DNA of 39,605 bases from NCBI GenBank assembly GCA_029263175.1, contig JAJCXZ010000002.1, positions 1 to 39,605 on the forward strand, given 5' to 3'. Below are positions 13,573 to 21,510 of the stretch, in pieces. The DNA comes from Acidimicrobiales bacterium. Its GTDB lineage: Bacteria > Actinomycetota > Acidimicrobiia > Acidimicrobiales > Aldehydirespiratoraceae. The notes under the pieces were generated by a model. The model was not told where the DNA came from. It was given only the letters and a program-made list of their open reading frames with translations, and searched no databases. A program made the position numbers and the translations under genes. Each line of letters opens with the position of its first letter. Within the stretch, counting starts at the first letter, position 1.

Positions 13573-14178
13573 CTACGCGGCGGGGACGTCGAGTCGACCG
13601 ATCGCGCCGAGCGCCCGTCGGAGAACCTCGGGAAGGTCGCCCTCACCGTCGTTGGCGAACCACTGACGAGTAGCCGCTCGAAGGGCGGAGAACGCGGCGC
13701 CTGCGAGGATCTCCGGATGGGCATCCTCGAGCGGATTGACACCTATTCGTTCGGCGATCGCCGTGGTCAGTTCGTGCTCCCATGATGCCTGCACCACGGC
13801 GCGTGCGTAGGCCGAGAGTGCAGGTGACGTCGACCCGAGGCGGGCCTGCAGGTAGCGGAGGTCGCGATCGTCGGGATAGTCGTCGGTGATGGCCATCATC
13901 GCATGGGTGACACTGAGGGTGACGGCCTCGTTGGCCGGGCGAGAGTCGAAGGCGGCACGCATCCGCTCTCGCAACACGTCGGTGTCGGCGTAGAGGACGG
14001 CTTCTTTCGACGGGAAGTGGCGAAAGAACGTGCGCTGAGAAACGTCGGCCGCCTCGGCGATCTGCTCGGTGGTGACAGCGTCGAACCCGTGAGCGTCGAA
14101 CAGGCGCGCCGCTTGGATGATCAGTTCATCTCGCGTCTGGAGCTTCTTGCGATCGCGGCGACTCGGTTCGGGCTCCAT
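13573..14178 (-). CDS. TetR-family repressor of the lipid locus
   Basis: 201 residues. The N-terminal TetR helix-turn-helix spans about 12-60 ('IIQAARLFDAHGFDAVTTEQ' then 'ADVSQRTFFRHFPSKEAVLY'); the remainder is an all-helical ligand domain with a conserved 'MTFT_C_17'-like C-terminal part. It is transcribed divergently from the HAD-PlsC gene, and three copies of a 15-bp dyad fill the 74-bp gap, so it most likely represses both itself and the lipid operon. A fatty acid or acyl-CoA inducer would be logical but is not visible from sequence. The ATG has no Shine-Dalgarno and lies six bases after a TAAGAT box, consistent with a leaderless message. Confidence 0.93.
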   Translation of the reverse strand: MEPEPSRRDRKKLQTRDELIIQAARLFDAHGFDAVTTEQIAEAADVSQRTFFRHFPSKEAVLYADTDVLRERMRAAFDSRPANEAVTLSVTHAMMAITDDYPDDRDLRYLQARLGSTSPALSAYARAVVQASWEHELTTAIAERIGVNPLEDAHPEILAGAAFSALRAATRQWFANDGEGDLPEVLRRALGAIGRLDVPAA

Positions 14179-14184
14179 CTCCGC

Positions 14185-14213
14185 ATCTTATGTCAGCGAG
14201 CGACAGTTGTCAT
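14185..14213 (-). promoter_or_regulatory. Promoter of the TetR gene (leaderless)
   Basis: On the minus strand ATGACA (14213-14208) and TAAGAT (14190-14185) are 17 bp apart. The -10 box ends six bases before the ATG at 14178. Operator copy 1 lies in the spacer and copy 2 overlaps the -35 box. Confidence 0.6.
14191..14205. promoter_or_regulatory. TetR operator copy 1
   Basis: TGTCA-N5-CGACA, a 15-bp dyad with one arm mismatch from the TGTCA-N5-TGACA consensus. It lies between the -35 and -10 boxes of the TetR gene. Copies start at 14191, 14208 and 14225, an exact 17-bp pitch. Confidence 0.65.
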
Positions 14214-14222
14214 TTATTGACA
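14208..14222. promoter_or_regulatory. TetR operator copy 2
   Basis: TGTCATTTATTGACA, a perfect TGTCA-N5-TGACA dyad. One arm is part of the minus-strand -35 box and the other arm contains the plus-strand TTGACA -35 box, so a bound repressor would shut both promoters. Confidence 0.75.
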
Positions 14223-14246
14223 TATGTCAGTGACTGACATTAGAGT
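14217..14246 (+). promoter_or_regulatory. Promoter of the lipid operon (leaderless)
   Basis: A consensus TTGACA (14217-14222) is followed 18 bp later by TAGAGT (14241-14246), which ends six bases before the ATG at 14253. There is no Shine-Dalgarno. Transcription would begin at the A of the start codon. Confidence 0.7.
14225..14239. promoter_or_regulatory. TetR operator copy 3
   Basis: TGTCAGTGACTGACA, a perfect dyad with 6-bp arms around 3 bp, inside the spacer of the lipid-operon promoter. Confidence 0.75.
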
Positions 14247-14252
14247 GACCGC

Positions 14253-15671
14253 ATGAGCAGTGCCGCTGTCTTCGATCTCGACCGCACCCTGGTCCTGGGG
14301 TCATCCGCCACGGTCTTCCAACGACATCTGGCCGATGTCGGTCTGGGTACCGAACACTCGATCCCGGGGATGGGCGCCTACCAGAAGTCCTATGAGATGT
14401 TCGGCGAGAACCCGCTGATGATGCAGGTTGCCCGCCTTCTCGTTCGTAGCGCCGAGGGTTGGCCAGTCGAGTCGGTCGCCATCGCGGCGGAGGCGGCGGT
14501 GGACGAACTCCTCGGCCTGATCCCCGGGTTCGCCCACGGATTGCTCGACGAGCATCGCGCGGCCGGCCGCAAGCTCGTGCTCGCCACGACATCGCCGGAT
14601 GCCTTCGTTCGTCCCCTTGCCGAACGGCTCGGCTTCGACCATGTGATCGCCACTCGCTGGCAGGACGATGGCACCGTCTACACCGGCGAACTCGATGGCG
14701 AATTCCTCTGGGGCCGCGCCAAGCGTGATGCCGTACGCGATCTGGCCGAGCGTGAAGGCATCAAACTCAAGACGAGCTTCGGCTACTCCGACAGCACCTA
14801 CGACGTTCCCCTTCTCAAGGCCGTCGGTACTCCGGTCGCGGTGAATCCCGACCCTCAGCTCACCGCGATCGCCGCCCTCAACGGTTGGCAGATCCGTCAC
14901 CTCGACGTCTCACCCGGCGTCGCCAAGTTCGCCGGCCGCGAGCTTCAGGCGTGGCTGCGCCCCTTCGCCCGTCCTGAACTGATCCCCAACGCCCGCTTCG
15001 ACATCCAGGGCATAGAGAACATCCCGGCCAACGGTGCTGCGATTGTCGTCTTCAACCATCGCAGCTACTTCGACTCGACGGCGGTGGGGATGCTGATCGC
15101 GCAGGCCGAACGCTCGGCCCGCTTCCTCGGGAAGAAGGAAGTGTTCGACGTGCCGTTCATCGGCAAGCTCGGAGCCATGCTCGGCGGCATTCGTGTCGAC
15201 CGCGGCACTGGCTCCGACGAACCGCTGGAGAAGGCAGTCGACGCGTTGAAGGGCGGCGAGCTCGTCGCCATGGCGCCCGAAGGCACGATCCCCCGTGGCC
15301 CGGCGTTCTTCGACCCCGAGCTGAAGGGCCGGTGGGGCGCCGCTCGGCTCGCTCACGCCACCCATGCCCCCGTCATCCCCGTTGGCATCTGGGGCACCGA
15401 GAAGGTCTGGCCCCGCAGCGCCCGAATGCCCAACCTCGATCTCACCGATCCGCCGCTGATCACGATCCGAATCGGAGAGCCTGTCGAGCTGAAGTACAAG
15501 AGCCTCGACAAGGACACCGAGCGAATCATGACGGCGATCGTCGATCAACTCCCGAGCGAAGCTCGCGACCATCACGAGCCCACCCCCGAAGAACTCGTCC
15601 TCACCTACCCCCCCGGCTATTCCGGCGACCCCGAAGCCGAAGCCGAGCGACGTCCAGGAACCGACACATGA
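14253..15671 (+). CDS. HAD phosphatase / 1-acylglycerol-3-phosphate acyltransferase fusion
   Basis: 472 residues with two enzymes in one chain. Residues 1-220 are a HAD-IB hydrolase: D8-x-D10-x-T12 in 'VFDLDRTLV', K157 and the acidic 'GYSDSTYD' (177-184). Residues about 235-440 are a PlsC acyltransferase: 'NHRSYFD' (N268-H269...D274) and 'PEGT' (342-345). The HAD part could dephosphorylate lysophosphatidate, phosphatidate or phosphoserine-like substrates; the PlsC part transfers acyl chains to lysophosphatidic acid. Together they could lead toward diacylglycerol for the WS/DGAT enzymes that follow. The stop overlaps the next ATG (ATGA). It is the first gene of the TetR-controlled operon. Confidence 0.92.
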   Translation: MSSAAVFDLDRTLVLGSSATVFQRHLADVGLGTEHSIPGMGAYQKSYEMFGENPLMMQVARLLVRSAEGWPVESVAIAAEAAVDELLGLIPGFAHGLLDEHRAAGRKLVLATTSPDAFVRPLAERLGFDHVIATRWQDDGTVYTGELDGEFLWGRAKRDAVRDLAEREGIKLKTSFGYSDSTYDVPLLKAVGTPVAVNPDPQLTAIAALNGWQIRHLDVSPGVAKFAGRELQAWLRPFARPELIPNARFDIQGIENIPANGAAIVVFNHRSYFDSTAVGMLIAQAERSARFLGKKEVFDVPFIGKLGAMLGGIRVDRGTGSDEPLEKAVDALKGGELVAMAPEGTIPRGPAFFDPELKGRWGAARLAHATHAPVIPVGIWGTEKVWPRSARMPNLDLTDPPLITIRIGEPVELKYKSLDKDTERIMTAIVDQLPSEARDHHEPTPEELVLTYPPGYSGDPEAEAERRPGTDT

Positions 15672-17158
15672 GCACGACAACACGCCCCCGTGAACTGCGT
15701 TTCGAGCAGAAGATGTCCGACGCCGAAGCGCTGATGTGGAACATCGAAAAGGATCCGTGGCTCAATCCGAGCGGCGCCATGATCAGCATCCTCGATCGGC
15801 CCCTCGACATCGAATTGTTCAAAGCACGCATCCGCACAGCGGTAGCCGAGATTCCTCGGCTGCGCGAGCGGGTTGTGCCCGGGTTCGGTCGCCTCTCTCC
15901 CCCCACGTGGGCGACCGACCCGGAGTTCGACTTCGACTACCACGTTCGCCACATCGCGCTACCGGCCCCGGGTACCGAGCGGCAGCTCCTCGACCTGGCC
16001 ACCCGTCTCTACGAAGACCCGTTCGATCGCACCCGGCCACTGTGGATGTTCATCTCTATTGACGGCCTCGAAGGGGGCCGGGGTGCGGTCTTCTCCAAGA
16101 TGCACCACACCGTCACCGACGGCATCGGTGCCATCCGTCTCTCCGAGCGTTACATCGAAGCCGAGCGGGAGGCACCCGCCCCCGAGTCTGTCGACCTCGA
16201 CCAGGTCATCGCCGATGCCGTCGCCGAAGAACGAGCCGACGAGGACAAGCCCGGCGGAGCCAGTGTCGATGGGGCCTCGCCCCTCGACAGTCTTCGTCGC
16301 AGCCTCGGCCATGTGGCTCGCCGCCAGGCCGGCTTCGCTCGTCGCGCCGTCGGTGAGGTGGCCACCTGGAGCGGTGATCCGCTACTGGCGCGCGAGTTCG
16401 CCGAGGAGATGATCGACACCACCAAGTCCACAATCGGCCAGCTCGGCTCCTCTGACTCTGAAGCCCCGTCGGGCTCGGAGCTGTGGTCGCACCGGTCGCG
16501 TCGTCGGCGCCTGGAGACCATCAGTCTCCCGCTCGACGCAGTGAAGAGCGCCGGCAAGACTCTAGGTGGATCGATCAACGATGTTTTCGTTGCCGGCGCG
16601 GCGATGGGAGCGCTCGACTACCACAAGAAGCGTGGCGTGACGCCCGAAGGCCTCAATGCCAGCTTCGTCGTGAGCACGCGAGCCGACAGTGCCATCGGCG
16701 GCAATTCGTTCACGCCGACCAAGCTGCCCATACCGGGTTCGTACAAGTCGGCCAGGAAGTTCTTCGTCGAGGTTCGTGATCGGATGACCGAACGGCGTGA
16801 AGCCGTTTCCGGTGGCGGTGCCCTCGGCGGACTCGCCGGCGTGGCCAACCTGCTGCCGACCTCTGTTGTCACCCAGATGGCTCGGGCCCAGGCCTCGAGC
16901 ATCGACTTCGCCACATCGAACCTGCGGGGTGCGTGGTTCCCGACATTCATGTCAGGCGCCGCCGTTGAACGCAACATCGTCATGGGGCCGGTTGCCGGCA
17001 CGCCGATGAACATCACGACCATGTCCTACAACGGCCAACTCGACATCGGCTTCTTCATGGACCCGTCCGCAATAGAGGATCCCGACGATCTTCGAGAGTG
17101 CATGCTCGCCGCCTACACACAGCTGCTGGCTGCCGGCGGGGTTGATCTCGATGGCTGA
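15668..17158 (+). CDS. Wax ester synthase / diacylglycerol acyltransferase (WS/DGAT), copy 1
   Basis: 496 residues from ATG 15668, overlapping the previous stop; the longer frame beginning at 15332 is a shadow of the upstream gene. The active-site motif HHxxxDG is present as 'HHTVTDG' (H146-G152), preceded by 'RPLW' (123-126). The C-terminal half has the conserved 'GSINDVFVAG' box. The N-terminus is longer than in copy 2 ('FEQKMSDAEALMWNIEKDP'). WS/DGAT enzymes esterify diacylglycerol or fatty alcohol with acyl-CoA to make storage triacylglycerol or wax ester at the membrane and lipid-droplet surface. The stop overlaps the next small gene. Confidence 0.93.
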   Translation: MSTTTRPRELRFEQKMSDAEALMWNIEKDPWLNPSGAMISILDRPLDIELFKARIRTAVAEIPRLRERVVPGFGRLSPPTWATDPEFDFDYHVRHIALPAPGTERQLLDLATRLYEDPFDRTRPLWMFISIDGLEGGRGAVFSKMHHTVTDGIGAIRLSERYIEAEREAPAPESVDLDQVIADAVAEERADEDKPGGASVDGASPLDSLRRSLGHVARRQAGFARRAVGEVATWSGDPLLAREFAEEMIDTTKSTIGQLGSSDSEAPSGSELWSHRSRRRRLETISLPLDAVKSAGKTLGGSINDVFVAGAAMGALDYHKKRGVTPEGLNASFVVSTRADSAIGGNSFTPTKLPIPGSYKSARKFFVEVRDRMTERREAVSGGGALGGLAGVANLLPTSVVTQMARAQASSIDFATSNLRGAWFPTFMSGAAVERNIVMGPVAGTPMNITTMSYNGQLDIGFFMDPSAIEDPDDLRECMLAAYTQLLAAGGVDLDG

Positions 17159-17585
17159 TTCCGATTTCATCGACCGACTGCAGACCAGTCGCGACACGCT
17201 TCGCAAGTTCCAGTCGTCTCTCGCCCGCATGGCGATGCCGGCTGAGCAGCGCAAGGCGCTCGTCGACGGGATGACCCGCTTCGTGATGCCGGGCGATCAG
17301 ATCCAAGCGATGGTCGATCTCGTCGACGCATTCGGACCGCCGCTGGCCCAGATCGAGACGTTTCGGTCCGAACTCGCCGAGCATCGGGTCGAGGTCGAAC
17401 GGATGGAGGCTCGTCTCGCCCATCTCGAGTCTGCGGCCGAACGTTTGGCCCTCGCCGCCGAGAACATGATCGCCATGCAGGAACCGTTCATCAGGATGGC
17501 CGAACTCCTGACCGGGCAAAAGGCCGACCGCAAGAATGCCGTTGACACCGCCGCCGACACCGAACCCGAAAGCACAGATTCATGA
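17151..17585 (+). CDS. Small helical (coiled-coil) protein between two WS/DGAT genes
   Basis: 144 residues from ATG 17151, overlapping the previous stop by 8 bp; its own stop overlaps the next start (ATGA). It is almost entirely helical: 'FIDRLQTSRDTLRKFQSSLA' (about 5-24), a short 'MPAEQRK' turn, and a heptad-like segment near 75-110 rich in E, R, L and A ('VEVERMEARLAHLESAAERL'), then an acidic tail of about 20 residues. No signal peptide or membrane helix. I do not recognise the family. Size, amphipathic helices and position suggest a phasin-like protein coating lipid inclusions or a scaffold for the two acyltransferases; this is inference only. Confidence 0.8.
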   Translation: MADSDFIDRLQTSRDTLRKFQSSLARMAMPAEQRKALVDGMTRFVMPGDQIQAMVDLVDAFGPPLAQIETFRSELAEHRVEVERMEARLAHLESAAERLALAAENMIAMQEPFIRMAELLTGQKADRKNAVDTAADTEPESTDS

Positions 17586-19042
17586 AGCAACTCACCGGAC
17601 TCGACGCGGGCTTCCTGTACATGGAGTCGTCGACATCGTTTGGACACGTGAGCAGTGTCGTCGTGTACCAACGTCCCGACGATCCCGACTTCAAACCATT
17701 CGAGGCGTTTCGGCAACAGATCGCAGATCGAATCCACCTCCTCGAACCATTGCGGCGGCGCCTGGTAGAGGTGCCCTTCAACCTCGACCACCCGTATTGG
17801 ATCAACGATCCGGACTTCGATCTCGACTTCCACGTTCGCCACATCGCCATCCCTGCACCCGGCGACATGTCGCAACTGAGCGAACAGATCGCCCGCATCA
17901 TCAGCCGTCCTTGTGATCGCAGCCGCCCGCTCTGGGAGGCCTATGTCCTGGAGGGTCTGGAGAACGGCGACTTCGCCATTCTCACCAAGGTGCACCACGC
18001 CACCATCGATGGGGCATCCGGCGTTCAGTTCCTGAACATGGTGCTCGACAGCGATCCGGCCGGTGATCCAATTCCCGAAGACGACGGCTCGTGGCGCCCC
18101 GATTCGATCCCGAACGAGATGGACATGCTCGGTCGAACCGCGGTCAGTTTCATGAGAAAGCCCGGCCGCATGGCCAGGGCGCAGCTGAACACGATGCAAG
18201 AGCTCGCCGAGATCACCCGCAACAAGGGAGCGAGCGCGTACATCTCGAGTGTGCGCGATCAGTTGCCGCCGGCATTCGGCGGCCGCAATCGTGGTGACGC
18301 TGATGCGCCGTCCGGCCTGTCGGCCCCATCGACGCCGTTCAACAAGCCGATCAGCGCCCAACGGCGACTGGCGATGCGTTCGACGCCGCTGGCTGACGTC
18401 AAGGCACTGAAGACAGACCTCGGTGCCACCGTCAACGACATCGTCATGGCTGTCTGCGCGGGAGCGCTGCGCAACTACCTGCTCTCTCACGATGCGCTTC
18501 CCGACAGGCCCCTGCGCACAATGGTGCCGGTCTCGATCCGCAGTGGCGACGAGGCCGACCCGTGGACCAATCGTGTGTCCAGCCTCTTCGTCGACCTTCC
18601 GACCCATATCGCCGATCCGCTCGAGCGTGTGGCTTCGGTTCACGAATCGATGGTCGCCGCGAAGGAACAGATGCGACTTGTGCCCGCCGAAGCGATCGTC
18701 GATGCAGCCGAATTCGCGCTGCCTGCGATCACCTCGCAGGCGTCGCGAGCCGCCGGCCTGCTCGCCCGCCGTGGCGCAGTGCCCGTCAACGTCGTGATCT
18801 CGAATGTGCCAGGTCCGCGCACGCCGCTTTACATGGGTGGTGCGAAGATGACCCACTTCTATCCGGTGTCGACCATTGCCCCCGGTGTTGGTCTCAACAT
18901 CACGGTGCAGAGCTATCTCGACACCCTCGACTTCGGTTTGGTTGCGTGCCGCGAACTCGCCCCCGACCTCGATGACCTCATGGATCTCCACCTCAAGGAG
19001 ATCGACACGCTGTTCGACGCCGCCGGGATTACGCGACCGTAG
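17582..19042 (+). CDS. Wax ester synthase / diacylglycerol acyltransferase (WS/DGAT), copy 2
   Basis: 486 residues, closer to the classical WS/DGAT form than copy 1: it begins 'MKQLTGLDAGFLYMES' (the typical L-s-x-x-D-a-x-F start), has 'SRPLWEAYVLEGLENG' (114-129), the active-site 'HHATIDG' (H138-G144), and 'GATVNDIVMAVCAGALRNYL' in the second half. It transfers acyl groups from acyl-CoA to diacylglycerol or alcohols. Having two different WS/DGATs in one operon suggests a division of substrates or a heteromeric unit. Its last 14 bp overlap the convergent PlsC gene. Confidence 0.95.
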   Translation: MKQLTGLDAGFLYMESSTSFGHVSSVVVYQRPDDPDFKPFEAFRQQIADRIHLLEPLRRRLVEVPFNLDHPYWINDPDFDLDFHVRHIAIPAPGDMSQLSEQIARIISRPCDRSRPLWEAYVLEGLENGDFAILTKVHHATIDGASGVQFLNMVLDSDPAGDPIPEDDGSWRPDSIPNEMDMLGRTAVSFMRKPGRMARAQLNTMQELAEITRNKGASAYISSVRDQLPPAFGGRNRGDADAPSGLSAPSTPFNKPISAQRRLAMRSTPLADVKALKTDLGATVNDIVMAVCAGALRNYLLSHDALPDRPLRTMVPVSIRSGDEADPWTNRVSSLFVDLPTHIADPLERVASVHESMVAAKEQMRLVPAEAIVDAAEFALPAITSQASRAAGLLARRGAVPVNVVISNVPGPRTPLYMGGAKMTHFYPVSTIAPGVGLNITVQSYLDTLDFGLVACRELAPDLDDLMDLHLKEIDTLFDAAGITRP

Positions 19043-19838
19043 CTTCGGCTGCGGCCGGGTCAGGCTGTTCGAGCACGATCGGGTGGGCGGTGAGTACGGC
19101 TCGCCGGGGCTCAGGAGTCGTGCCCGTCGTTTCAGAATCGCCCTTGCCGGCGTAGGTGTTCGTGTAGTTCTGTCCACTGAGGTGGCTGATCTCGTACATC
19201 ACCGCGTCGGTGATACTCCGCGCCAGACGAGGACCGGTCAAGCCGCCGAAGTCGCGCGGGTGAATCGGTGCGCCGACACGCACGACGACGCGCTTTCCGC
19301 GCTTGAGCATCACGCTGTCGGGCGGCTGCACGTCGACTGTGCCCTCATGGCCGACTGGAATGATCGGCACGTCGCAGCGAATGGCCAGCCGAGCGGCACC
19401 GGTGCGTCCCTTGTGGAGATTCCCGCTTCGAGACCTGGTGCCTTCGGGGTACAGCATGAACAGCTTTCCTGACTCGATCACCTTCGCCGCCGTGTCGAGT
19501 GCGTCCATCGCCGCCTCGCCGCCGGATCGATCGATCGGAATCATGCCCATGGCCGGGAAGAGGTGTTTCGTCTTCCAACTGTCCATGTACTCGCCCTTGC
19601 CGATCGCCCAGACCCGTCGGGGAAGCGCCGCCGGTACGAACAACGAATCGCAGAACGACAGATGATTGGGGGTGATGACCGCTCCGCCGGTGAGGGGAAT
19701 GTTCTCGACCCCTTCGATCTGGAAGTCCCAGAAGCGATGAAGGGACCGGCGCACCAGGCCGAGTCCATACCGGCTCAGGCGATCCGACCCAGGCAGTCCA
19801 GGAGCTTCCTCGAACTGGAACGTGGGTCGGCTCGACAT
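19029..19838 (-). CDS. 1-acyl-sn-glycerol-3-phosphate acyltransferase (PlsC family)
   Basis: 269 residues from ATG 19838; an in-frame extension to 19949 overlaps the divergent promoter and is not needed. Catalytic motifs are clear: 'NHLSFCD' (N58-D64) and 'YPEGTRSRSG' (about 129-138). Block 'GMIPIDRSGG' sits between them as expected. A C-terminal tail of about 40 residues is Thr/Pro/Ala-rich. It acylates lysophosphatidate or a related lysolipid at the inner membrane. It lies opposite to the WS/DGAT operon and divergent from an acyl-CoA synthetase, so the local gene set covers most steps from fatty acid to storage lipid. Confidence 0.92.
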   Translation of the reverse strand: MSSRPTFQFEEAPGLPGSDRLSRYGLGLVRRSLHRFWDFQIEGVENIPLTGGAVITPNHLSFCDSLFVPAALPRRVWAIGKGEYMDSWKTKHLFPAMGMIPIDRSGGEAAMDALDTAAKVIESGKLFMLYPEGTRSRSGNLHKGRTGAARLAIRCDVPIIPVGHEGTVDVQPPDSVMLKRGKRVVVRVGAPIHPRDFGGLTGPRLARSITDAVMYEISHLSGQNYTNTYAGKGDSETTGTTPEPRRAVLTAHPIVLEQPDPAAAEATVA

Positions 19839-19947
19839 CGCTAGTCCCTCGGCCCGGGTGGGGGATCGGTGCGGTCCACGCCTCTGTGGATATCGCGGAC
19901 GGTCGGGCTTGTCCAACACGGGCGCCCCCTCGTAGCGTTCGTTCACC

Positions 19948-21510
19948 ATGGATTATCGGGCGACGATCGACGTTCTGCAGCGAACGGGCGCCGCCGACCC
20001 GACCCGCGTGGCCGCACTCACCGCCGGCTTGGCGCGGTGGGGCCCCAGCCTTGCGGCCACCTGCGCTGCCGGATCGCTGCGCTACCGCAACCGCGTGGCC
20101 GTTCACGATGATGACGGTTCGGTCACGTGGGGTCAGCTCGATCGACGGTCGAGCCATCTCGCTCGGGGTCTCCATGGCGCGGGCGTCGGTCGCGGGGCGC
20201 AGCTCGGAATCCTGTGCCGCAACCACATCGACTTCGTTGTCGTCGCGATCGCAGCGGCGAAAGCCGGCCATGTGCCGATCTTCTTGAACACGGGTTCGGC
20301 GGCCGCCCAAGTCATCGAGATCGTGCGGGCAGAGTCGATCGAAGCGCTCGTCGCCGACGCAGATCTGTTGGATTCGTTGGCGGCCGACCTCGACGGGCTC
20401 GCGTTGACGGTCGTCGTCGCCGATGGTCACCGGCAGGGACACACCTCGGTGGAGGAGCTCACCCGACAGGGTCGCTTCCGACTCGACCCGCTTGTGCCCA
20501 AGCCCGCGGCCCCGGTGGTGATGACCTCGGGGACGACGGGCACCCCCAAGGGAGCGCGCCGTCGGTTGCGAGCCGGATCCACCAGCGCCGGCGCGGGCAT
20601 CCTTCAACGCATCCCCTATCGAACCAGCGATGTGTTTGTGATCTCCGCACCGCTGTTTCACGCATGGGGCCTCGCCAACCTCACGCTCGCCGGTCTCCTC
20701 GGTTGCCCGGTGGTGCTCTCCCGTCGGTTCGACCCTGCTTCCACGGTGGCATTGGTCGTGGCCCATCGGGCCTCGGTCCTCGGTGCTGTGCCCATCATGC
20801 TCCAGCGGATCCTCGCGGCTGACGATGTCGATCTGGCGCCACTGTCGGGCCTGCGGATCGCGGCGACGTCGGGGTCGGCGCTTCCCGCCGCCGTCGCCGA
20901 GGAGTGGATGGATCGCACGGGCGACAACCTCTACAACCTCTATGGCTCCACGGAAGTCGGCCAAGCCACTCTGGCCACACCGGAGGATCTCCGCCATGCA
21001 CCGGACACCGCCGGCCGCGCGATCCCGGGGTGCGAGGTCCTGGTGCTCGACGACGAAGGTGTCGCGGTCGCGGTGGGGGAGAGTGGCCGGATCTTCGTCG
21101 GCAACGGAGGCCAGTTCGACCATTACACCGGCGGTGGCACCCGGGAGATCGTCGACGGGCGGATGGCCACCGGTGATGTCGGGCATCTCGACACGGCCGG
21201 TCGACTCTTTGTCACCGGACGAGCGGACGACATGATCGTGAGCGGCGGCGAGAACGTCTTTCCCACTGTTGTCGAAAGCGCGCTGCTCGCCCATCCGAGC
21301 GTCGTCGACTGTGGTGTGGTCGGCGTCGATGATGACGAGTTCGGCCAGCGCCTCCGAGCCGTCGTTCAGGTCAGCGCGCCCTTGGGCGCCGAAGACCTGC
21401 GGGCGCACGTGAGCGGTCGGCTCGGACGTCATTACGTCCCCCGAGACTTCGAGTTCGTCGACGAGGTCCCCCGCAATGCCAGCGGCAAGCTCCGGCGATC
21501 AGAGCTTTGA
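19948..21510 (+). CDS. AMP-forming acyl-CoA synthetase (FadD-type)
   Basis: 520 residues of the ANL superfamily. The P-loop is 'TSGTTGTPKG' (193-202), the adenine-binding motif is 'LYGSTEVG', the hinge region reads 'ATGDVGHLDTAGRLFVTGRA', and the C-terminal catalytic Lys is in 'NASGKLRR'. It activates a fatty or other organic acid to the acyl-CoA used by the acyltransferases nearby. A TAGCGT box at 19933-19938 with TTGTCC 18 bp upstream of it is a weak promoter candidate for a near-leaderless message. An atypical point is the basic 'ARRRLRAGS' right after the P-loop, where most FadD proteins have a hydrophobic stretch. Confidence 0.92.
   Translation: MDYRATIDVLQRTGAADPTRVAALTAGLARWGPSLAATCAAGSLRYRNRVAVHDDDGSVTWGQLDRRSSHLARGLHGAGVGRGAQLGILCRNHIDFVVVAIAAAKAGHVPIFLNTGSAAAQVIEIVRAESIEALVADADLLDSLAADLDGLALTVVVADGHRQGHTSVEELTRQGRFRLDPLVPKPAAPVVMTSGTTGTPKGARRRLRAGSTSAGAGILQRIPYRTSDVFVISAPLFHAWGLANLTLAGLLGCPVVLSRRFDPASTVALVVAHRASVLGAVPIMLQRILAADDVDLAPLSGLRIAATSGSALPAAVAEEWMDRTGDNLYNLYGSTEVGQATLATPEDLRHAPDTAGRAIPGCEVLVLDDEGVAVAVGESGRIFVGNGGQFDHYTGGGTREIVDGRMATGDVGHLDTAGRLFVTGRADDMIVSGGENVFPTVVESALLAHPSVVDCGVVGVDDDEFGQRLRAVVQVSAPLGAEDLRAHVSGRLGRHYVPRDFEFVDEVPRNASGKLRRSEL

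Follow-up and report, generated by a model that had tools for sequence, protein, structure and literature searches.

The window analysed here, a stretch of 39,605 nucleotides from an Acidimicrobiales bacterium, contains a TetR-type regulator gene and a cluster of lipid genes that diverge from an intergenic gap of 74 bp. This gap extends from the tetR ATG at 14178 on the minus strand to the ATG of an acyltransferase gene at 14253 on the plus strand. The acyltransferase gene (14253-15671, plus strand) encodes a 472-amino acid fusion of a HAD-IB and a PlsC-type acyltransferase domain, for which the HAD-IB and Pfam Acyltransferase models score above their cut-offs and the NCBIfam model AGP_acyltrn scores below. 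It is followed on the same strand by a WS/DGAT family acyltransferase (15662-17158), which exceeds the Pfam cut-off and reaches 255 bits against an NCBIfam cut-off of 310, by an ORF of 147 amino acids (17142-17585), and by a second WS/DGAT family acyltransferase (17582-19042) above both the Pfam and NCBIfam cut-offs. Because these genes overlap, we infer that they form one transcript, and their family memberships indicate a cluster of triacylglycerol or wax-ester synthesis enzymes.

The 147-amino acid ORF has no family and only sub-threshold matches, some of which are to coiled-coil families; residues 2-135 are 93% identical in locus L047, and the product is possibly, as a guess, a lipid-body or enzyme-scaffold protein. 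Further downstream, a second PlsC-type acyltransferase gene (19029-19949, minus strand) and a FadD-like ligase gene (19948-21510, plus strand) have listed starts that overlap head to head in the letters CATG; the minus-strand gene may in fact begin further inside its listed frame. A fadD/plsC-like pair comes after tetR instead in several relatives.

The regulator gene (13573-14178, minus strand) encodes a protein of 201 amino acids with a TetR_N helix-turn-helix domain (PF00440, 62.7 bits against a cut-off of 24, E-value 2.8e-17) and a TetR_C_14 domain, the C-terminal domain of MftR (PF17754, 53.9 bits against a cut-off of 22.7, E-value 2e-14). Its structure model (pLDDT 92.3) has the all-helical TetR fold, with 2rae, SCO3201 and MftR (8x0a) as the nearest solved folds (TM 0.80-0.89) and the acyl-CoA binders FadR and FasR lower down the matches, at ranks 14 and 27. 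The protein scores below the cut-off of the MftR equivalog TIGR03968 (105.3 bits against 224.9) and far short of that of the FasR model NF053731 (29.6 bits against 330). Mycofactocin genes, which mark the location of MftR, were absent among the scanned tetR neighbours (eight by Pfam, seven by NCBIfam); these neighbours encode lipid enzymes, a hydrolase, a CBS protein and an ORF product without family. The adjacent DNA carries the half-site TGTCA and not that of the MftR operator GGCA-N5-TGCC, the N5 spacing being common to both. The repressor very probably binds the three-copy word that lies beside its own gene.

Three putative operator copies interlocked with two candidate divergent promoters

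The intergenic gap holds three copies of the palindrome TGTCA-N5-TGACA. Site 1 (14191-14205, TGTCAGCGAGCGACA) matches 9 of the 10 defined letters with a mismatch in its right half, site 2 (14208-14222, TGTCATTTATTGACA) is exact, and site 3 (14225-14239, TGTCAGTGACTGACA) is both exact and a perfect palindrome. The initial annotation had described copies starting at 14191, 14208 and 14225; all three positions hold and the second and third copies are exact, but the mismatch in the first went unmentioned. The pitch between successive copies is exactly 17 bp, twice, as had been claimed, and a 2-bp gap separates each complete 15-mer from the next. At 10.5 bp per turn this pitch corresponds to 1.62 helical turns, leaving a residual of 223 degrees between neighbours, and the earlier figure of about 1.6 turns is thus right as arithmetic.

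Single matches to the motif are common enough, with a mean of 1.03 matches of at least 9/10 letters per copy when the window was simulated 400 times under a first-order Markov model. None of these 400 copies contained a pair of such matches 11-40 bp apart or an evenly spaced triple. The number of motifs in the window is not raised (6 matches with at most two mismatches against 14.3 expected), and the array therefore exceeds chance because of its close and even spacing, not because of motif number.

The sites are interlocked with candidate promoters for both genes. On the minus strand, the tetR promoter combines a -35 box ATGACA (14213-14208) within site 2 with a -10 box TAAGAT (14190-14185) that ends 6 nt ahead of the ATG, and its 17-bp spacer is filled by site 1. 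On the plus strand, the promoter of the lipid operon combines a -35 box TTGACA (14217-14222), also within site 2, with a -10 box TAGAGT (14241-14246) that again ends 6 nt ahead of the ATG, and its 18-bp spacer contains site 3. Both genes are probably leaderless. A promoter scan of positions 13900-14500 found only this divergent pair, with shuffled sequences giving a mean of 0.1. The scan agrees with the initial assignment of copy 1 to the tetR spacer, of both -35 boxes to copy 2 and of copy 3 to the lipid spacer, and both -10 boxes do end six bases ahead of their start codons as described. The three-copy array interlocked with two divergent promoters is a real feature of this gap.

Conservation of the array and its association with the TetR gene

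Seventeen orthologous TetR proteins were found besides the window protein, with identities to it of 46-91%. A family search of 51 genomes gave matches at 1e-20 in 10, of which 9 were orthologous (the window's own genome included), and an order search of 397 genomes, with at most eight candidates per genome scored, gave 9 more; a class sample of 395 genomes, with at most eight candidates per genome scored, added no orthologue in the 46-91% range. Locus L028 was excluded as an orthologue, as its protein is 39% identical and its divergent gene lacks an acyltransferase-like start by eye; it does carry a 17-bp pair. Among the 18 orthologous loci, 17 keep two 15-mers that lie 17 bp apart and match at least 7/10 letters each, the exception being L025, in which two sites lie 33 bp apart. 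An unbiased offset scan of the same 18 loci gave an excess of 5.9 ± 0.5 at 17 bp and at most 2.2 elsewhere, this at 34 bp, or twice 17. The best single offset was 17 in 15 of the 18 loci (one tie), 33 in L025 and 34 in L009 and L027, yet the last two also contain the 17-bp pair, and a strict version of the scan recovered the pair in 14/18 loci against a shuffle mean of 0.01. The initial annotation had held that an unrelated repeat pattern in close relatives would speak against the proposed operator; the pattern kept in the relatives is the same one.

The individual sites and promoters were compared in 21 loci, 17 of them found through the protein and four (L044, L045, L052, L060) through the pattern, which consequently favour the pattern letters because they were chosen by them; L025, with its sites 33 bp apart, is absent from this set. 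Site 3 is the most conserved: at 13 of its 15 positions, 20 or 21 of the 21 loci share the same letter. Most of the loci retain the terminal TTGAC of site 2, as befits a -35 box. At site 1, at least 7/10 letters match in 6/21 loci, comprising three of the four in the window genus and 3/17 elsewhere. Site 3 is thus the conserved core of the array, with site 1 both weaker and more variable.

A promoter was counted as fitting when it had a -35 box in site 2 with at least 4/6 letters of TTGACA and a -10 box of the form xAxxxT. By this definition the lipid-gene boxes framed on site 2 fit in 20/21 loci (spacer of 17 in 11 rows and 18 in 10) and the tetR boxes in 19/21 (spacer of 17 in 18 of 21 rows), figures flattered by a script that tried four spacer lengths and kept whichever gave the best -10 box. 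These fits across loci indicate that the use of site 2 as a shared, back-to-back pair of -35 boxes is a conserved design. When the listed starts were read by eye, an in-frame start lay 6-7 nt past the -10 box in 17/21 loci for the lipid gene and in 17/20 for tetR; the first listed start alone gave 16 and 12, respectively, L026 was left uncounted for its poor -10 box, and L044 has no tetR on its contig. Leaderless starts thus look usual for both genes; in loci L010-L012 the lipid gene is preceded by 27, 33 and 61 nt of leader. The L027 lipid promoter is a misfit to site 2 and its assumed -10 box is poor; a better promoter, judged by eye, lies one 17-bp unit downstream, where TTGACA forms the outer half of site 3. 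The earlier proposal of a compact switch over both promoters is supported by this comparison.

The array was also compared with the presence of the regulator. Fifty-seven best-scoring acyltransferase loci were collected (30 from a search with matches in 177 of 397 genomes, and a further 27 from one with matches in 28 of 51), and two of these, L090 and L091, were left out because the gene start was off the contig. With a TetR scored as nearby when a tblastn match below 1e-15 fell inside the fetched locus, the 17-bp pair stood ahead of the acyltransferase gene in 14/14 best-scoring loci with a TetR nearby and in 1/41 without (Fisher 3e-12 over the 55 loci, a value that ignores kinship; since the loci are related, the counts are not independent events). 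In the lone exception, L085, the pair is degenerate, and the contig also carries a TetR orthologue (L025) at a distance of 6-7 kb. Within one genus (g6), TetR and array occur together in three genomes (G025, G027 and G030) and are both missing from four (G024, G026, G028 and G029). By this comparison, the array accompanies the TetR gene and is tied to that regulator.

A scan for the pair through a genome collection of 84,980 species, according to the description of the tool, returned 18 stretches. Fourteen were of the Acidimicrobiia type, 10 of which were taken as genomes already in the protein-found set; all 14 lie ahead of an acyltransferase gene and 13 lie beside a TetR gene, the fourteenth (L044) beginning at a contig end. 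Another stretch, in Pseudonocardia sp. CNS-004 (L051:6860-6890), lies beside another TetR_C_14 gene, between it and a divergent ORF, and has three TGTCA-type palindromes spaced by 17 bp, two of them good and one degenerate. Three stretches were set aside as unrelated repeats, with no match to a TetR homologue at 1e-10. Two of these, in Clostridia (L046:2165-2196 and L053:2185-2233), contain three to four tandem TGTCAGAAACTGACATT-like 17-bp units, located at the end of a presumably GGDEF-like gene, and in the third, from Treponema (L055:4071-4101), the 17-bp unit CTGTCAGCCGCTGACTA is repeated in tandem within an intergenic stretch.

The initial annotation had suggested that the same 15-mer elsewhere in the genome would define a regulon, and this search gave no wider regulon. 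The 4.4-Mb genome contains one other exact TGTCA-N5-TGACA, and the relaxed word TGTCAGYNRCTGACA (at most two mismatches) occurs at 33 places against 48 for a reversed control. The other exact palindrome (G000:C45:53991-54005, locus L003) is a single copy in an intergenic gap between genes that we take to encode an IclR-type regulator and a urocanate hydratase.

The 17-bp pitch at other TetR_C_14 loci

A sister TetR_C_14 regulator (G000:C49:454-996, locus L014) adjoins an MMPL transporter gene in the genome G000 and represents a group that is 33-38% identical to the window protein. The sites of its orthologues are tandem and resemble TTGCA-N5-TGCAA, and the best second site, among at most 60 offsets, was exactly 17 bp away in 13 of the 14 sister loci; seven of the 14 were unused in forming the idea, and six of those seven show 17 bp. 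In the six sister loci having TTGACA, this -35 box starts at -11 from the left site, as against +9 in the lipid array, so that the promoter register is shifted by 20 bp and the -10 position falls over the junction of both sites. Loci L180-L185 have the 17-bp pitch, and the stretch read there lacks an exact TTGACA. The retention of the pitch while both the word and the promoter register change favours a constraint from neighbouring dimers, and on this comparison the pitch probably belongs to the protein. The pitch recurs at other TetR_C_14 loci with another promoter register and is thus not peculiar to the intergenic region of the window.

Upstream regions of more distant homologues hinted at other 17-bp pairs, and some relatives show 18 bp. 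We compiled 63 other TetR_C_14 loci, comprising 44 of 50 places and 19 loci from the family, order and class searches; of the six places omitted, four already belonged to other groups, one was an additional copy in G764 and one lay where a contig begins. A strict 17-bp pair was the commonest in this sample, with 5 loci where 0.35 would be expected (about 0.0016 once corrected for the 50 offsets), one of the five being from the sister group, and a strict 18-bp pair occurred in 4 loci against 0.45 expected. Multiples of 3 (12, 15, 18, 21 and so on) were also raised in the offset scan, which we read as the coding periodicity of the scanned stretches. Upstream of the tetR gene of a distant homologue, locus L032 contains, by eye, tandem TGGCA-N4-TGCCA palindromes spaced by 16 bp, a shorter unit in which the gap is again 2 bp.

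Among the seven best-scoring PF17754 loci, four (L132-L135) have a single mft-type palindrome, with partners scoring 1-5/10 at 17 bp on either side, and a search for mft-type palindromes gave no match in the other three (L131, L136 and L137). The operator letters suggest that L132-L135 are mycobacterial MftR loci. A universal 17-bp rule for the TetR_C_14 family finds no support, given four MftR-like loci with one site, a broad excess that is modest, and 18 bp raised as well. The lipid and sister groups are moreover paralogues, so that common descent rather than selection may account for the trait.

A proposed switch and its precedents

Taken as a whole, the best explanation, in which we have strong confidence, is that the array is the autoregulatory operator of the adjacent TetR-type repressor and covers both promoters. 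One repressor dimer would occupy each 15-bp palindrome, possibly with cooperativity between dimers. Dimers at sites 3 and 2, placed at the 17-bp pitch, would mask the spacer and the -35 box of the acyltransferase and lipid operon, and in the window genus a dimer at site 1 would similarly mask the repressor's own promoter, so that both leaderless genes would be shut together. As the half-site in site 2 provides the -35 letters TTGACA and the 17-bp unit matches a promoter spacer, the repressor and RNA polymerase would compete for the same DNA. By analogy with MftR, FasR and FadR, a lipid ligand, most likely a long-chain acyl-CoA or a relative of one, would release the repressor.

Two other accounts concern what the sites are and which protein owns them. 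In the window the 12-bp stretch between copies, TGACATATGTCA (TGACA-N2-TGTCA), is itself a perfect palindrome, and the second gap letter is A in 18/21 loci, which would suit true sites shifted in register by half a unit. However, the first gap letter varies (the commonest occurs in 10/21), 20-21 of the 21 loci retain the G and AC about the site 3 centre, and the footprinted MftR operator is of the N5 build (PMC8728441); we regard the shifted register as extremely improbable and as ruled out on conservation. It is very improbable, too, that the sites belong to a DNA-binding protein other than the adjacent TetR. Among the best-scoring loci the array is found in 14/14 with a TetR nearby and 1/41 without, and the exception (L085) carries its TetR elsewhere on the contig.

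The origin of the pitch is a separate matter, as 17 bp might be a by-product of tiling sites on divergent promoters, with the half-site serving as -35 box and a spacer of 17-18 bp, and with no contact between dimers. Consistent with this, in the window as in most relatives the -35 box lies in the left site of the pair and the spacer is occupied by the right site; in L027 the promoter of the lipid gene reads, by eye, as displaced by one whole 17-bp unit. The MMPL-linked sister nevertheless keeps 17 bp with its promoter placed 20 bp differently, its half-site TTGCA is no -35 box, and L180-L185 hold the pitch without exact TTGACA in the stretch read. We therefore consider this account unlikely, and promoter tiling as the sole cause of the 17 bp is disfavoured. 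The fixed pitch most likely reflects how neighbouring dimers of this group of TetR_C_14 regulators sit on DNA. A broader reading, which we advance tentatively and with somewhat less than even confidence, is that one group of TetR_C_14 regulators has a fixed 17-bp dimer geometry (1.62 turns, on near-opposite faces) that would form a helical coat despite changes of half-site, target and register, and that in the lipid branch the unit doubles as a promoter ruler, with promoters able to shift by whole units, as L027 hints.

An autoregulated divergent TetR switch is an already known type. In the tetR-tetA systems of Tn10 and Tn1721, divergent promoters are under tandem operators with autoregulation, the Tn1721 tetR message is leaderless, and there are two operators and a drug as inducer. 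What is new here is the recurrence of the 17-bp pitch in two regulator branches.

Several other regulators may be compared with the window protein. MftR of Mycolicibacterium smegmatis is described as binding long-chain acyl-CoAs and, upstream of mftA, one 27-bp operator with the palindrome GGCA-N5-TGCC, and its binding is reportedly unimpeded by single-letter changes in the palindrome (PMC8728441). It resembles the window protein in its PF17754 C-terminal domain and the N5 build of the palindrome, but differs in its half-site, in having one operator and in regulating a redox-cofactor cluster. The nearest precedent found is FasR of Mycobacterium tuberculosis, a TetR-type lipid activator that reportedly recognises three inverted repeats within a single promoter and is released by long-chain acyl-CoA, and whose crystal has neighbouring dimers juxtaposed at roughly 90 degrees on one DNA fragment (PMC7382501). 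FasR is alike in repeat number and differs from the putative window repressor in being an activator. MAB_4384 of Mycobacterium abscessus is a TetR regulator divergent from its efflux-pump targets, and two dimers on its intergenic operator are modelled as shutting both sides (PMC5895659); that operator is one 27-bp palindrome of two 13-nt repeats, in contrast to the separate 15-mers here. DarR, and QacR as cited in the same source, place two TetR dimers on one operator region (PMC10636190), but the DarR palindromes overlap, whereas the 15-mers here are side by side with 2 bp between them. MtrR is described with a single N4 palindrome (PMC8053128). In the open-access literature on tandem, 17-bp or two-dimer TetR operators and on TetR and triacylglycerol operators, we found no recognisable match to the array, which does not imply its absence from print.

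These results link a lipid-synthesis operon, comprising an acyltransferase and two WS/DGAT enzymes, to a repressor related to lipid sensors in a manner that can be tested, and they do so for hosts, the Acidimicrobiales, that are represented here by metagenome-assembled genomes only. The constancy of 17 bp under changing sequence and register points to protein geometry as a conserved operator trait. The unit length and the half-site word together provide a simple code for locating the operators of other TetR_C_14 regulators.
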